From Fibrobacterota bacterium (GTDB lineage: Bacteria; Fibrobacterota; Fibrobacteria; UBA11236), in contig JAQBPN010000032.1 of NCBI GenBank assembly GCA_028287505.1, forward strand, positions 1 to 44,601: a stretch of DNA of 44,601 nt, in the 5' to 3' direction. Below, piece by piece: positions 28,628 to 44,539 of the stretch. Every line of letters begins with the position of its first letter. The stretch's first letter is position 1. Under the pieces are notes generated by a model. That model searched no databases, had not been told where the DNA came from, and worked only from the letters and a program-made list of their open reading frames with translations. Position numbers and translations under genes: made by a program.

Positions 28628-28678
28628 ATGGCCTTGGATCCGCAGAATTGGAATCGCATCAAACGTGAACCCGCCTAA
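28628..28678 (+). CDS. Possible 16-residue leader peptide overlapping the HD-GYP start
   Basis: An ATG two bases after a GGGGG ribosome site opens a 16-codon frame (MALDPQNWNRIKREPA) whose stop lies 12 bases inside the HD-GYP gene, whose own GTG start lacks a ribosome site. A -10-like TATTAT sits just upstream. This could couple translation of the two, or be the true N-terminus if a frameshift is present in the short C-rich run after it. Confidence 0.3.
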   Translation: MALDPQNWNRIKREPA

Positions 28679-29549
28679 TCCATCCCCCCGATCCCCTTCC
28701 CCGGAAGGCAACTCCCCGGCCGAATCCGGAAAGCGCGGGGCGACCCCGGTGGGATCGGATCCCGCCCGCGAAGCTCCCGGAGCGGAAGCCCCTCTGGGCG
28801 AAAAGCTCGAACACTTCTACCGCAGCCGCAAAGAAGAGGGCGAACTCCAGACCACAGAGATCCCCATCTCCATGCTGATGGCCCTGGACAAGCTGGTGCG
28901 GATTTCCGAGCGCCCCCTGGATTCCCTGGCCGCGTCCCAATCGGCGCATGCCATTGAAAAAGATCCGGAACGCAAGAGCCAGTCGACCGTCCGGGACCTC
29001 AGCGGACATCTCAAACGCGTCGCGGCCTACGCCAAGCTGCTCGCGCTCAAATACGGCATGACCGAACAGGAAGCCAACTTCATCAAGCAAATCGCCCCCA
29101 TGCACGATATCGGCAAATGGGCCATCCCGGAATCCATCCTGCAAAAGCCCAGCGCCCTCACTCCCGAGGAGTGGGAAATCATGAAAACCCATACGCAGAT
29201 GGGCTTCGAGATGCTGAAGGATTCCAAGCTGGACGTATTGCAGATGGGCGCCCTGGTGGCCGTGCAGCATCAGGAAAAGTTCGACGGCACCGGCTATCCC
29301 AAGGGTCTCAAGGGCGAAGAGATCCACATCTACAGCCGCATCACCACGGTGGCGGACGTCTTCGACGCCTTGGGCAGCGAGCGCTCCTATAAGCAGGCTT
29401 GGGCCGTGGTGGACATCATCCAGTATTTCGCGGAAGGCCGGGGAACGCACTTCGACCCTTCCCTGGTGGATCTTCTCTTATCGCACTTGGATGATTTCCT
29501 GGCGATCCGGAGAGACTTCCCTATTGCTGCCGCGGGCGAAGCCGGTTAG
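28665..29549 (+). CDS. HD-GYP-type phosphodiesterase (c-di-GMP signalling)
   Basis: The 294-residue protein has a Pro/Ser/Gly-rich N-terminus (1-45), a helical region, and an HD-GYP domain (about 105-285): HD at 147-148 in MHDIGKWAIP, the next metal-ligand His near 176, HQEKFDGTGYPKGLKGEEI (202-220) and DVFDAL (231-236). HD-GYP enzymes hydrolyse cyclic di-GMP. The usual HHE motif reads HQE, so one metal-ligand His is replaced; this variant is also found in other bacterial HD-GYP-like proteins, and activity should not be assumed. The start codon is GTG. No receiver domain is fused, but a stand-alone receiver gene is encoded convergently just beyond. Confidence 0.87.
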   Translation: MNPPNPSPRSPSPEGNSPAESGKRGATPVGSDPAREAPGAEAPLGEKLEHFYRSRKEEGELQTTEIPISMLMALDKLVRISERPLDSLAASQSAHAIEKDPERKSQSTVRDLSGHLKRVAAYAKLLALKYGMTEQEANFIKQIAPMHDIGKWAIPESILQKPSALTPEEWEIMKTHTQMGFEMLKDSKLDVLQMGALVAVQHQEKFDGTGYPKGLKGEEIHIYSRITTVADVFDALGSERSYKQAWAVVDIIQYFAEGRGTHFDPSLVDLLLSHLDDFLAIRRDFPIAAAGEAG

Positions 29550-29635
29550 AGGCCGATTAGAAGCCGATACGCTGGGTAAAGAGCGCTTTGAAAAGCCTGC
29601 TCTTGAATTGATTCCACTCACATTTGATTTTTTAT

Positions 29636-29870
29636 TTCGTCGGGCGTACGGCATCTCCGCTTTCGGCTGCTGCGCGCCTAGGCGTCGGGCGTCGGGCGTT
29701 AAGAAAAAGGAAGAATGGGCTCTATGGTTTTCTGAGACAGCAGAGAAGCGGCAGTGACTGCCCCGCCGTTTGCCCCAGCCGCCCATCTCTTTTTCAATTT
29801 TGATTTTTTCTTCACGCCCGACGCCCAGGCACGCTTCGTGCCGGGTCGCCTGACGCCCGACGAGATGCGG
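29636..29870. repeat. REP-like element, copy 1 (GTCGGGC units with A/T-rich arms)
   Basis: This fills most of a 369-base convergent gap that has no gene. It starts with TTTCGTCGGGCGT, holds GGCGTCGGGCGTCGGGCGTT followed by AAGAAAAAGG, then, about 90 bases on, TTTTTTCTTCACGCCCGACG, an internal hairpin GGCACG-CTT-CGTGCC, and ends with GACGCCCGACGAGATGCGG. The arms pair over about 15 bp with one mismatch. The same units recur in the other convergent gap near 43.2 kb. The part of the gap before the element (29550-29635) holds a weak AAGAGC/GCTCTT hairpin and nothing else I can name. Confidence 0.7.
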
Positions 29871-29918
29871 TTAGCAGCACAAGGGCGTCAAATCCCTACT
29901 CTGCCCGTCCCGCAAATC

Positions 29919-30293
29919 CTACTCCGCCTGGATCAGCTCTTCCACCTGGGTGATCAACGCGTTCAATCGGAACGGTTTTTGGAGAAAGGCCACTCCCGGC
30001 ATTTCCAGGGATTTGTGGATGGCGGCGTTGTTCGCGCCGGTATATCCGGACATGAAAATCACCTTCATGGTGGGATGTTCCTTGCGGAGCCGTTCCACCA
30101 TATCCGATCCGCTCATATGCGGCATCACCACGTCGGTCAGGACCAAATCCACCGGTTTGCCGGTTTGCCTCAGGAGGTCCAGGGCCTCGACCCCTTGGCA
30201 TGCTTCCAGGACGAGATAGCCCTTGATTTCGAGCAACTCCCGGATAAGGCCGCGGAGCATATCTTCGTCCTCGACAAGCAAGATCGTTTTCAT
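29919..30293 (-). CDS. Single-domain response regulator (CheY-like receiver)
   Basis: The 124-residue protein is one receiver domain: acidic pair ED near residue 8-11 (VEDEDML), phospho-acceptor Asp in LVLTDVVMP, the T/S switch in FMSGYTG and Lys in FLQKPF. No output domain is attached, so it would act by binding a partner or passing phosphate on. It is transcribed alone and faces the HD-GYP gene across the REP-like element; a functional link between the two is possible but not shown. Confidence 0.95.
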   Translation of the reverse strand: MKTILLVEDEDMLRGLIRELLEIKGYLVLEACQGVEALDLLRQTGKPVDLVLTDVVMPHMSGSDMVERLRKEHPTMKVIFMSGYTGANNAAIHKSLEMPGVAFLQKPFRLNALITQVEELIQAE

Positions 30294-41578: not shown

Positions 41579-43141
41579 ATGACCGACCTCCGCTTCCCGT
41601 TCCGGAATGTGACCGCTTGTCTCGTCCTGGGCCTGGCCCTCTGGCTGGCCGGATGCCTCTTCGATGCCAAATATCCGGATCCCGCGGACTCGACGCAATC
41701 CTATTCGACCGTCAATCTGGACACTCTCTATCCCGCCGGCGCCGCCGCGGAAAGCGTCGTGACCTTGTTCCAGCCTTTCCAGGATCCCTCCCTGGGATCG
41801 GGAGGGATCGGACCCAAGGAAGCTTTGACGCCGGTGAATGTCAAGGACCATGTCACGGGCAAGGTGGTGCAGTACCGGTTGACCCGCCAACGATTCGGAT
41901 CCTGGGACGCGGGACTCGAATTCAAATGGAACTATTTCCTGCTGAAATCCAACTTCCTGTTCGCCGCCGACATGCCCGATACCTCGGGCATGGAGAACAG
42001 TTCCCCCACCCTGTTCCAACGCGTCCATGCATTGGACTCCTTCACAAACTATTTCGACAGCGTGGACGCGCCGCGCATCTGGGCCAGGATCACCACTTCC
42101 ACCAAGCCGGGCGCCGTGGGCGTGGCCGTCAGGCTTTCCGCGGGCAAGGACTCGGTAGTCATCCAGCAGGTGGTGGCGAATTCCCCGGCCGGACGCGCCG
42201 GATTGTCGGCGGGCATGGTCATCCTGTCCGTGAACGATTCCGTCACCGTGGGCGACTCGGCCATCGAACGGTTCTCGCGTTTCAGCGGCGGGGATTCGGG
42301 ATCGACGGTCAAGCTCGAAGTCACCGGCCCGGGTTCCAATGGGCCGAAAACCTTCAACCTGGTGCGGGAACCGGTGGCCTTCCCCACCGTGATGGTCGAC
42401 TCCATCCAGGGCATAGGTTATCTGTCCATCAGCGGATTCACGCCCAACACGGTGGATTCCAAATCCACTTATACGGAATTGCGCGACGGCCTTTTGGCCA
42501 CGCGGGGGTTTCCCGTGACCATCCTGGACTTGCGGGATAACGGCGGAGGCTCTCTGGACGTGGCCATGAAAATGTGCGATGAGATCCTGCCCGCCGACAT
42601 CATCATCATCCGCCAATTGCAGCGGCGCTTCGACGAAAGCGCCCATGCGCCCCTGGAATCGGAGATCACCGCGGTAGCCACGGCCGGCGGCGTAGGGGAA
42701 AAGGCCCCGGACGGAAGCCGGAGAAAATACCTCCTGCTTGGGAATGGGCACAGCGCCAGCGCTTCGGAAATCTTCCTGGTGTCCATCCGGGAGGGTGCCG
42801 ATGCGCCTTTGATGGGCATCAAGACCTACGGCAAAGGCGTGGGCCAGACGGTGCGCAACACCCCGGCCAAGGGTCTCTCACTGGTCACCTTCCTCAAGTT
42901 CACCAGCCGCTCCAAACTCGATTACCATCTGCATGGCCTGGTTCCCGATTATCCCGATTCCTCGGATTCGGATTCGCTGTTGGCCCACGCGGCCCAGAAG
43001 GCGCTGGCCATGGCCGGCAGACCCGCCGCCAAGGTTTCCGCCGCGTCCGGGTACGATGTGTCGCGCCAGGCCGCCGCCGTGGAGTGGAACCGCCGCCAGG
43101 GTATCAGGCCGGGCGTGACGGACCTGGAAGAGCTGCGCTGA
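41579..43141 (+). CDS. S41-family (C-terminal-processing-like) peptidase, PDZ-containing lipoprotein
   Basis: The 520-residue protein starts with a lipoprotein signal (LVLGLALWLAGC, Cys at residue 26). A PDZ domain spans about 176-262 (VVANSPAGRAGLSAGMVILS), followed by the S41 peptidase domain (270-450) with YLSISGFTPN, ILDLRDNGGGSLD, the nucleophile Ser 394 in GHSASASEIF and the general-base Lys 419 in KTYGKGVGQ. This fits CtpA/Tsp-like serine proteases that trim or degrade envelope proteins, anchored here to a membrane. An N-terminal region (30-170) is unlike the usual CtpA N-terminus and may be lineage-specific. It stands alone on its strand. Confidence 0.92.
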   Translation: MTDLRFPFRNVTACLVLGLALWLAGCLFDAKYPDPADSTQSYSTVNLDTLYPAGAAAESVVTLFQPFQDPSLGSGGIGPKEALTPVNVKDHVTGKVVQYRLTRQRFGSWDAGLEFKWNYFLLKSNFLFAADMPDTSGMENSSPTLFQRVHALDSFTNYFDSVDAPRIWARITTSTKPGAVGVAVRLSAGKDSVVIQQVVANSPAGRAGLSAGMVILSVNDSVTVGDSAIERFSRFSGGDSGSTVKLEVTGPGSNGPKTFNLVREPVAFPTVMVDSIQGIGYLSISGFTPNTVDSKSTYTELRDGLLATRGFPVTILDLRDNGGGSLDVAMKMCDEILPADIIIIRQLQRRFDESAHAPLESEITAVATAGGVGEKAPDGSRRKYLLLGNGHSASASEIFLVSIREGADAPLMGIKTYGKGVGQTVRNTPAKGLSLVTFLKFTSRSKLDYHLHGLVPDYPDSSDSDSLLAHAAQKALAMAGRPAAKVSAASGYDVSRQAAAVEWNRRQGIRPGVTDLEELR

Positions 43142-43203
43142 GTCGATGAAAAAAGCCGATCGAGGATGATTGGTGGATTTTGACGCCTTGGTGCTCGGGG
43201 ATA

Positions 43204-43328
43204 CATCTCGTCGGGCGTCGGGCGTAAAACTTTTTCCGCACTCATGGGTCGTAAAGAAAAAACCTGTGAATATCTCCGGTTTTTTCTTTACGCCCGACGC
43301 CCGACGCCCGACGCCCGACGAAATCTCG
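43204..43328. repeat. REP-like element, copy 2, with a perfect A/T-arm hairpin
   Basis: Left part CATCTCGTCGGGCGTCGGGC then GTAAAAC; right part five near-identical CGCCCGA units ending in CGAAATCTCG. Between them a perfect 15-bp stem, C then GTAAAGAAAAAACC at 43250-43264 against GGTTTTTTCTTTAC then G at 43278-43292, encloses a 13-base loop. Outer and inner arms together make a nested inverted repeat. It fills the convergent gap between the S41 protease and M20 genes, as copy 1 does for its own pair, so it may serve as a bidirectional terminator or be a mobile REP/MITE remnant. Confidence 0.8.
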
Positions 43329-43360
43329 CGCGGACCTCATGGCCTCAAATCAAGCCATAA

Positions 43361-44539
43361 TTAATCCGAACTGAATTTTTCTTCCAGAATCGCCAGGAAC
43401 AGACGGATCCCCATCTCCAAGGCCGCGTCGTTGAAATCGAAACGCGGGTTGTGCAGGGAACCGCGCGCGTTACCCAGGCCGAGCCAGAGGTAGGCTCCCG
43501 GAACCTTTTCCAGGAAAAATGGGAAATCCTCCCCGGCCATGCTGGGCCGCGGTTCCACGCAGTTCCCTTCGCCGAATGCTTTCACCGCGGCGCGGCGCGC
43601 CAGGGCGGCCATGGTCGGATCGTTGATGGTGGCTGGACAACCTTCCACCCAATGCAGACGGGCTTCCAGGCCCAGGCCGCGGCAGAGGTTGACAGCCAGG
43701 GACTCAAGGCCGGATTTCAGCCTGTCCCTTACGGCGGGACTGTGGGCGCGCACGGTGCCGCGCAGCAGGCATTCCTCGGGAATGACGTTGAAGGTGCGGC
43801 CCGCCTGCACCTGGCCGAACGTGAGCACGGCCGAGTCGAGCGGATCGGTGGACCGGCTTACCAGGGATTGGGCGGCGCTGATCAACTGGGCGGCGGCGAA
43901 CACCGGATCCAGCGTCGCATGGGGCTGGGCCCCGTGTCCGCCTTTGCCGACCAGGGTGAGTTCGAAATTGTCCACCGAAGCCATCACCGCGCCGCCGTGG
44001 ACGCCGATGGCGCCGAGAGGCAGATCGGGCCAGCCGTGCAGGCCGAACACGGCCTCCACCCTGGGGGATTCCAGCGCACCGTCCGCCACCATCTGCTTGG
44101 CGCCGTTGCCGGCCTCCTCGGCGGGTTGGAAAAGGAGCTTGATATCCATGGGATAGGATTTGCCGGAGCGGGCCAACTGCTTGGCCAGGCCCAGCAGGAT
44201 GCCGGTATGGCCGTCGTGGCCGCAAGCGTGCATGGCCAGTCCGGATTGGGAAGCCCAGGGAAGTCCGGACGCCTCTTCCAGGGGAAGCGCGTCCATATCG
44301 GCGCGGAAGGCGATGGCCCGGGAGCGATCGCGGCCGGGCCAGATCCCCGCCACCGCGGTGCTGCCAGGAAAGGTTTTCACTTCCAGGCCGGCGGCCTTCA
44401 GCTCGGCCTGGATTAGGGCGGCGGTATTGCTTTCCTGACCTGAAAGCTCAGCCTCCCGATGAATACGCCGGCGCAAGGCCGTGCACTCCCGGACAATGTC
44501 TTCCGCGATCGGTTCGGAAACGGGATCGGGGCCGGACAT
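43361..44539 (-). CDS. M20-family amidohydrolase (N-acyl amino acid/hippurate hydrolase type)
   Basis: The 392-residue enzyme carries the M20D metal motifs: FRADMDALPLEE, HACGHDGHTGILLG and LLFQPAEEAGNGAK, plus GKGGHGAQPHATLDP in the lid domain and SMAGEDFPFFLEKVPG near the end. Members remove acyl groups from amino acids or small peptides in the cytoplasm using two metal ions. A strong GGAGG-type site lies within the last codons of the upstream gene, and start and stop overlap as TGATG, indicating coupling. Exact substrate unknown. Confidence 0.95.
   Translation of the reverse strand: MSGPDPVSEPIAEDIVRECTALRRRIHREAELSGQESNTAALIQAELKAAGLEVKTFPGSTAVAGIWPGRDRSRAIAFRADMDALPLEEASGLPWASQSGLAMHACGHDGHTGILLGLAKQLARSGKSYPMDIKLLFQPAEEAGNGAKQMVADGALESPRVEAVFGLHGWPDLPLGAIGVHGGAVMASVDNFELTLVGKGGHGAQPHATLDPVFAAAQLISAAQSLVSRSTDPLDSAVLTFGQVQAGRTFNVIPEECLLRGTVRAHSPAVRDRLKSGLESLAVNLCRGLGLEARLHWVEGCPATINDPTMAALARRAAVKAFGEGNCVEPRPSMAGEDFPFFLEKVPGAYLWLGLGNARGSLHNPRFDFNDAALEMGIRLFLAILEEKFSSD

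Follow-up and report, generated by a model that had tools for sequence, protein, structure and literature searches.

What are the clustered GTCGGGC units that lie between genes of this Fibrobacterota genome, and how do they come to sit where they do? The window, by which we mean the whole stretch of 44,601 nucleotides analyzed here, contains two such elements. The first-pass annotation had reported that both share GTCGGGC units, inner arms and an ATCTCG-like outer edge, that both lie between convergent genes, and that no transposase is near; all of these features were found as described. Element 1 (29636-29870) has units starting at 29639, 29684 and 29691 on the plus strand and at 29816 and 29855 on the minus strand, and occupies a gap of 369 bp between genes for an HD-domain protein (28665-29549, +) and a response regulator (29919-30293, −). 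Element 2, with two plus-strand and four minus-strand units, lies between genes for an S41 peptidase with a PDZ domain (41579-43141, +) and an M20 peptidase (43361-44539, −). No transposase adjoins either element. The inner arms GGGCGTCGGGCGTTAAGAAAAA and TTTTTCTTCACGCCCGACGCCC are 22 nt long and 95% complementary, and the arm sequences GTTAAGAAAAA and TTTTTCTT.AC are present in element 1. Edges of the ATCTCGTCGGGCG type (ATCTCG-like) are present in the window elements.

The bare count of the GTCGGGC 7-mer in the window (16) was close to the chance mean (14.5), unlike the clustered inverted arrangement of the units, which was beyond chance. When folded as RNA, the two elements were more stable than their shuffles (z = -5.5 and -7.5, with 0 of 200 shuffles as good), and the window had no match in Rfam. 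The parts of both elements are listed in Table 1. The extent first given for element 1, 29636-29870, leaves out an outer layer, weaker than the rest, that adds about 65 bp to either flank.

Table 1. Parts of the two window elements, with window coordinates, strand and basis of assignment.
Feature	Coordinates	Strand	Basis
Element 1, left outer layer (approximate; weakly conserved, purine-skewed)	29574..29638		Information per position across 166 element halves runs out near -66; purine skew extends to +-65; seen on start-codon sides too
Element 1, left arm, heptamer unit 1 (GTCGGGC)	29639..29645	+	Unit match
Element 1, left side module, 38-nt type (GTACGGCATCTCC...GCGCGCCTAGGC)	29646..29683	+	One of few between-unit module lengths, same register; 95% identical stretch elsewhere in genome
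Element 1, left arm, heptamer units 2-3	29684..29697	+	Unit match
Element 1, inner A-tract arm GTTAAGAAAAA	29698..29708	+	Inverted repeat I1 with 29805-29815
Element 1, core module A (..AAGCGGCAGTGACTGCCCCGCCGTTTGCCCCAGCCGCCCA..)	29745..29795	+	Matches to query 846-896 of window:28900-30300 in G004/G005, there a stand-alone repeat
Element 1, inner T-tract arm TTTTTCTTCAC	29805..29815	-	Inverted repeat I1
Element 1, right arm, heptamer unit (GCCCGAC on + strand)	29816..29822	-	Unit match
Element 1, right side module with 25-nt hairpin GACCCGGCACGAAGCGTGCCTGGGC	29823..29854	-	Module length class; hairpin class has compensatory changes
Element 1, right arm, outermost heptamer unit	29855..29861	-	Unit match
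Element 1, right outer layer (approximate); overlaps 3′ end of response-regulator gene 29919-30293	29862..29927		Position-specific information, purine skew
Element 2, left outer layer (approximate; GGTGGATTTTGACGCC...ATCTC)	43145..43209		Position-specific information
Element 2, left arm, two heptamer units	43210..43223	+	Unit match
Element 2, core module B (TAAAACTTTTTCCGCACTCATGGGTC)	43224..43249	+	Common to other copies, e.g. C118:34673, C101:66883, C118:39734
Element 2, inner hairpin GGTCGTAAAGAAAAAACC...GGTTTTTTCTTTACGCCC	43247..43295	+	Inverted repeat I1, 23-nt arms, 87%; no terminator call on either strand
Element 2, right arm, four heptamer units	43292..43319	-	Unit match
Element 2, right outer layer (approximate; GGCCTCAAATC); overlaps 3′ end of gene 43361-44539	43320..43385		Position-specific information

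The two elements had been taken for members of a repeat family, and a genome-wide search bore this out. BLAST of elements 1 and 2 against their own genome (G000, Fibrobacterota; 6.07 Mb, 98.7% complete) returned 69 and 80 matches on dozens of contigs, and the exact pattern GTCGGGCGTCGGGCG was matched 285 times and its reversal not once. We then defined a cluster as at least three units and surveyed 1.16 Mb of this genome, sampled around known copies; 86 clusters were present, as against none after a composition-preserving shuffle. Eighty-two clusters were two-armed, and in all 82 the order was (GTCGGGC)n...(GCCCGAC)n, the opposite order never occurring. The arms mostly had 2-4 units, and the first and last units spanned 46-245 bp (median 146). 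A scan for inverted tandem words with periods of 5-12 found 55 at period 7 (control 0) and none at periods 5, 6 or 8-12, and GTCGGGC and its rotations were the most over-represented 7-mers of the gaps. Further copies are thus plentiful, and they are not placed inside genes. The exclusion of CRISPR also held, as the arms are inverted and the copies are dispersed singly. Contigs C4, C40, C58, C62 and C104 of this genome end within an element, so that the assembly breaks at these repeats.

The elements had also been regarded as a family of convergent gaps. This was true of both window elements and of 27 of the 82 two-armed clusters, but 52 lay in tandem gaps, which are therefore the main setting; one was divergent and two were at contig ends. 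Element-free gaps of at least 100 bp in the same regions comprised 35 convergent, 202 tandem and 121 divergent ones. Elements thus avoid divergent gaps (Fisher p = 1e-11) and show a moderate preference for convergent over tandem gaps (odds ratio 3.0, p = 5e-4). This comparison of gap classes is little affected by the choice of regions, although the share of occupied gaps is inflated because the regions were selected for containing elements. The distance from stop codon to first unit peaked at 58-70 bp, and in a second, recurrent class the stop codon lay 7-11 bp before the first unit, within a TGTAGCAGCGTTTCGTC-like outer layer. The placement rule is therefore a position behind the 3′ end of a gene, not convergent gaps as such.

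From the outside inward, each element consists of an outer layer, an edge (ATTTCGTC / ATCTCGTC), heptamer arms with optional side modules, A-tract/T-tract inner arms and a variable core. The outer layer is weak and symmetric, with purines prevailing on its left side and pyrimidines on its right, and reaches about -66 from the first unit. Because it was present whether the side faced a start or a stop codon, and was missing from element-free gaps, we regard it as part of the element. Side modules between units keep a constant register and fall into few length classes (24-25, 38, 40-41 and ~52 nt). The core ranges from 35 to 169 nt, and one copy has none; the cores include module A (..AAGCGGCAGTGAATGC..GCCGCCCA) and module B (AAAACTTTTTCCGCACYCAT). 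Module A, at 29745-29795 of the window, is also found as a separate gap repeat in the congeners G004 and G005 (loci L192-L200), where it lies near gene starts as well as ends.

The 25-nt side hairpin occurred in the variants GGCACG/CGTGCC, GGCGCG/CGCGCC, GGTGCG/CGCACC, GGGGCG/CGCCCC and GGCCCG/CGGGCC. Nine cells were changed on both sides, a number reached by 0 of 500 shuffles and far above the slid controls, indicating that this hairpin retains its pairs through compensatory changes. Core arms paired slightly better with their own partners than with those of other copies (-15.2 vs -13.3 kcal/mol, p = 8e-4), and outer flanks paired no better with their own partners than with the flanks of other copies. 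On the sense strand of tandem copies, G-U and A-C mismatches were balanced (50:50, no strand bias), and this lack of a G-U excess gives no sign of selection at the transcript level.

To what extent is the family shared with relatives? A pattern scan of 84,980 species genomes gave convincing matches only in Fibrobacterota records (G003 and G004); the others were one exact match each in unrelated taxa and look like chance. Within the genus, GTCGGGCGTCGGGCG was counted 285 times in the own genome, 148 times in G003, 10 times in G004 and not at all in G001, G002 and G005, and the count was also zero in four sister-genus genomes. Orthologous sites in the five congeners (G001-G005) were mostly empty. 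At the site of element 1, which is present only in its own species, the gaps of G003, G004 and G005 are ~10-60 bp as compared with 369 bp here. At the site of element 2, G003 has an element with a different core and G001, G002, G004 and G005 have none; given the different cores, the two species possibly gained this element independently. The copy at L108:12903 is common to G004 and has the same architecture there, with the core hairpin rebuilt (AAAAACCAA..TTGGATTTTT vs CAAATCCAAG..CTTGGATTTG), and the copy at L108:15469 is absent from the orthologous sites of G004 and G005. Filled and empty orthologous sites therefore show that species within a single genus differ through gain or loss of copies, and that some copies persisted. 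Large inverted repeats in gaps were seen only in species having these heptamer families, and never in divergent gaps; samples of G005, G002 and G001 (0.73 Mb) contained no comparable ones in gaps except chance ones. Judged from relatives that lack copies or carry a different 7-letter word, gene-end palindromes appear to turn over quickly. In G004 (L164; C16:36.5 kb), one copy keeps GTCGGGC in its left arm and has a right arm expanded as (GCCAGTC)n.

The different word is that of a second family in G003, which has the same layout and the unrelated unit AAGGTTT/AAGGTCT, with 249 matches there and 0 in nine other genomes. A sampled 197 kb of G003 held 12 copies, of which 11 were two-armed and purine-first (4 of the 12 convergent, 8 tandem, 0 divergent; e.g. 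L153:7737-7808, L155:13555-13637 and L157:2926-3074). Their arms are AU-rich and they lack an A-tract/T-tract terminator-like core. The own genome also has two same-layout elements with the unit GGAGTCG (GTCGGGA) in both arms (L124:9901-10190 and L098:6841-7081). At L135:9314-9452 of the same genome, inverted AAATTGA heptamer arms surround a stretch that ends in a tRNA-like T-arm (GGGTTCCAATCCC), and two places in G005 have imperfect GGAGTCT- and GAGCCGG-like arms, noticed by reading only.

Several known repeats share the heptameric unit. Xanthomonas has (GGGAATC)n repeats in gaps, with ~70 inverted pairs per genome whose two runs lie on opposite strands and with 7-8% of pairs in divergent gaps, and Nostoc has an intergenic heptameric repeat, GGGGA(C/T)T (PMC4692102). 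Heptanucleotide arrays are described in Geobacter metallireducens (PMC2700814), and heptameric gap repeats have been noted in Beggiatoaceae and cyanobacteria (PMC4679880). Like the repeats of Xanthomonas, Nostoc and Geobacter, those described here are tandem heptamers in gaps with a species-specific word; the period is exactly 7, and they form inverted pairs as in Xanthomonas. They differ in that all two-armed copies are inverted in a fixed order, have inner arms of A and T tracts and side hairpins that can be exchanged, and are enclosed by an outer layer; in that divergent gaps are strictly avoided (1/82 vs 7-8% in Xanthomonas); and in that two unrelated heptamers occur within one genome (G003). 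In their unit the elements are closest to heptameric gap repeats; in their placement they resemble REP/BIME elements, but they fail two features that define the latter, RAYT and a tagged 20-40 bp hairpin. What is new here is that the inverted order is strict, that the anatomy is layered and its side hairpins exchangeable, that divergent gaps are nearly free of copies, and that unrelated heptamers coexist within one genus. A literature search for the family in Fibrobacterota gave a single, unrelated hit.

The best reading of these data is that of RAYT-independent, REP/BIME-like palindromes with heptameric arms. They are a species-level family of interspersed extragenic composite palindromes (~230-370 bp including the outer layer), with arms made of inverted heptamer runs, that would spread without RAYT/Y1 behind gene 3′ ends and possibly act as RNA or DNA hairpins; we hold this view with moderate confidence. 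Several observations count against it: the cores differ strongly from copy to copy, unlike recent copies of one transposon; no target-site duplication was readable; a search for Y1_Tnp brought up no enzyme for dispersal; and the mismatch balance in tandem copies gives no sign of selection on the transcript. New copies would arise behind gene 3′ ends, presumably moving as units, by a copying process that does without a RAYT/Y1 transposase and could use either trans mobilization by another enzyme or hairpin/template-switch copying combined with 7-nt slippage. Divergent, promoter-bearing gaps stay unoccupied, presumably since selection removes copies there. A palindrome behind a gene could form a long RNA hairpin or a DNA cruciform, a minority have predicted intrinsic terminators, and some supply the stop codon of the preceding gene. 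The elements may affect termination or mRNA 3′ ends. In the simplest view, this may be a fast-turning repeat that is tolerated behind genes and whose hairpins are perhaps used now and then. The usual explanation for REP-like elements is a RAYT transposase; in this genus, three species without RAYT have a large family of rapid turnover in the same niche. Because a single genus includes species with and without copies, an ancestral copy common to two of them and two heptamer words of unrelated sequence, the mode of spread, the period of seven and the gene-end placement are testable with few strains.

Alternatively, the elements might be a MITE family whose inverted outer layer lets an insertion sequence, of the DDE type or another, mobilize it in trans. 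The length range and long fold-back structure resemble those of bacterial MITEs (RUP, NEMIS/Correia, ERIC and BOX-like), which in known cases are transcribed from gaps and influence mRNA; the outer layer has GGATTTGATGC-like and AAAGAGCG-like stretches, and the insertions in orthologous gaps are clean. However, this layer is very weakly conserved and pairs no better with its own partner than with those of other copies; beyond this weak symmetric layer, which reaches to about -66, no conserved 15-30 bp terminal inverted repeat was evident. The cores are non-homologous between copies. Empty orthologous sites were read for a target-site duplication and none was readable, because intergenic DNA is too diverged between species, and a search that covered Y1_Tnp alone found no parental insertion sequence. 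We consider mobilization as a MITE possible but unlikely.

Also unlikely, in our view, is an unrecognised heptamer-based copying system in which one architecture (inverted heptamer arms, purine-first, behind gene ends) is retained while the heptamer is swapped between or within species. Both arms would then be written and corrected by some machinery, or by a mode of replication, that advances in steps of 7 nt. The words counted for such replacement are GTCGGGC, GGAGTCG and AAGGTTT, with GGAGTCT and AAATTGA as single cases.

The first-pass annotation had favoured a lineage-specific REP or MITE family and had named RAYT as the transposase to look for. Lineage specificity stood, as did the resemblance to REPs and MITEs in copy number and setting of interspersed, extragenic palindromes, but no RAYT/Y1 transposase was found in the genome. 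Classical REP/BIME elements are short palindromes mobilized by a RAYT (TnpA-REP) tyrosine transposase, and their CGTC and GTAG super-families resemble the elements described here: both are mosaic in their modules, lie behind gene 3′ ends in convergent or unidirectional gaps and can provide stop codons, the latter being described inside the ends of GTAG REPs (PMC3733652). Many dispersed copies, avoidance of divergent gaps and an edge that reads CGTC add to this likeness, and CGTC REPs are likewise without a dedicated transposase (PMC3733652). Against it, the unit is a 7-bp tandem word rather than a 20-40 bp hairpin, and the structure of CGTC-tagged REPs (an unpaired tag, an 8-9 bp stem starting with A-T, a 4-5 nt loop and a CCA tail) was not seen, CGTC lying within the paired heptamer arm. 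In addition, Y1_Tnp had no matches in the three carriers (G000, G003 and G004), while positive controls were detected in 5 of 14 genomes, and the sole congener with Y1_Tnp, G001, has no elements. Dispersal by RAYT is therefore unlikely, and we think it improbable that these are classical REP/BIME elements.

Equally improbable is that the elements are ordinary bidirectional intrinsic terminators with GC-rich decorated stems and no mobile or repeat biology. Their A-tract and T-tract inner arms are symmetric, they lie downstream of genes, and an intrinsic terminator was predicted on at least one strand in 43/82 and on both strands in 19/82, compared with 1, 1 and 0 in shuffles. Nevertheless, bidirectional terminators were predicted at a similar rate in element-free convergent gaps (10/67), indicating that the elements add little, and two methods predicted no intrinsic terminator on either strand of window elements 1 and 2. 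The AU-rich AAGGTTT arms around no such core, and the orthologous gaps of congeners that manage without elements, also argue against this reading. Bidirectional termination, as suggested earlier, is thus predicted for some copies and for neither of the two elements on which the suggestion was based; the predictions only partly support a terminator role.

Inverted pairs at terminators are also formed by the DNA-uptake (competence) words of Neisseria and Pasteurellaceae. Such words would account for inverted pairs behind genes and for GTCGGGC as the most over-represented gap 7-mer, but they occur singly and in genes, whereas nearly all gap copies of GTCGGGC are in tandem clusters. Within genes GTCGGGC shows depletion instead of enrichment, with 152 counts in ~1.01 Mb of coding sequence, and these gene counts refute this extremely unlikely reading.
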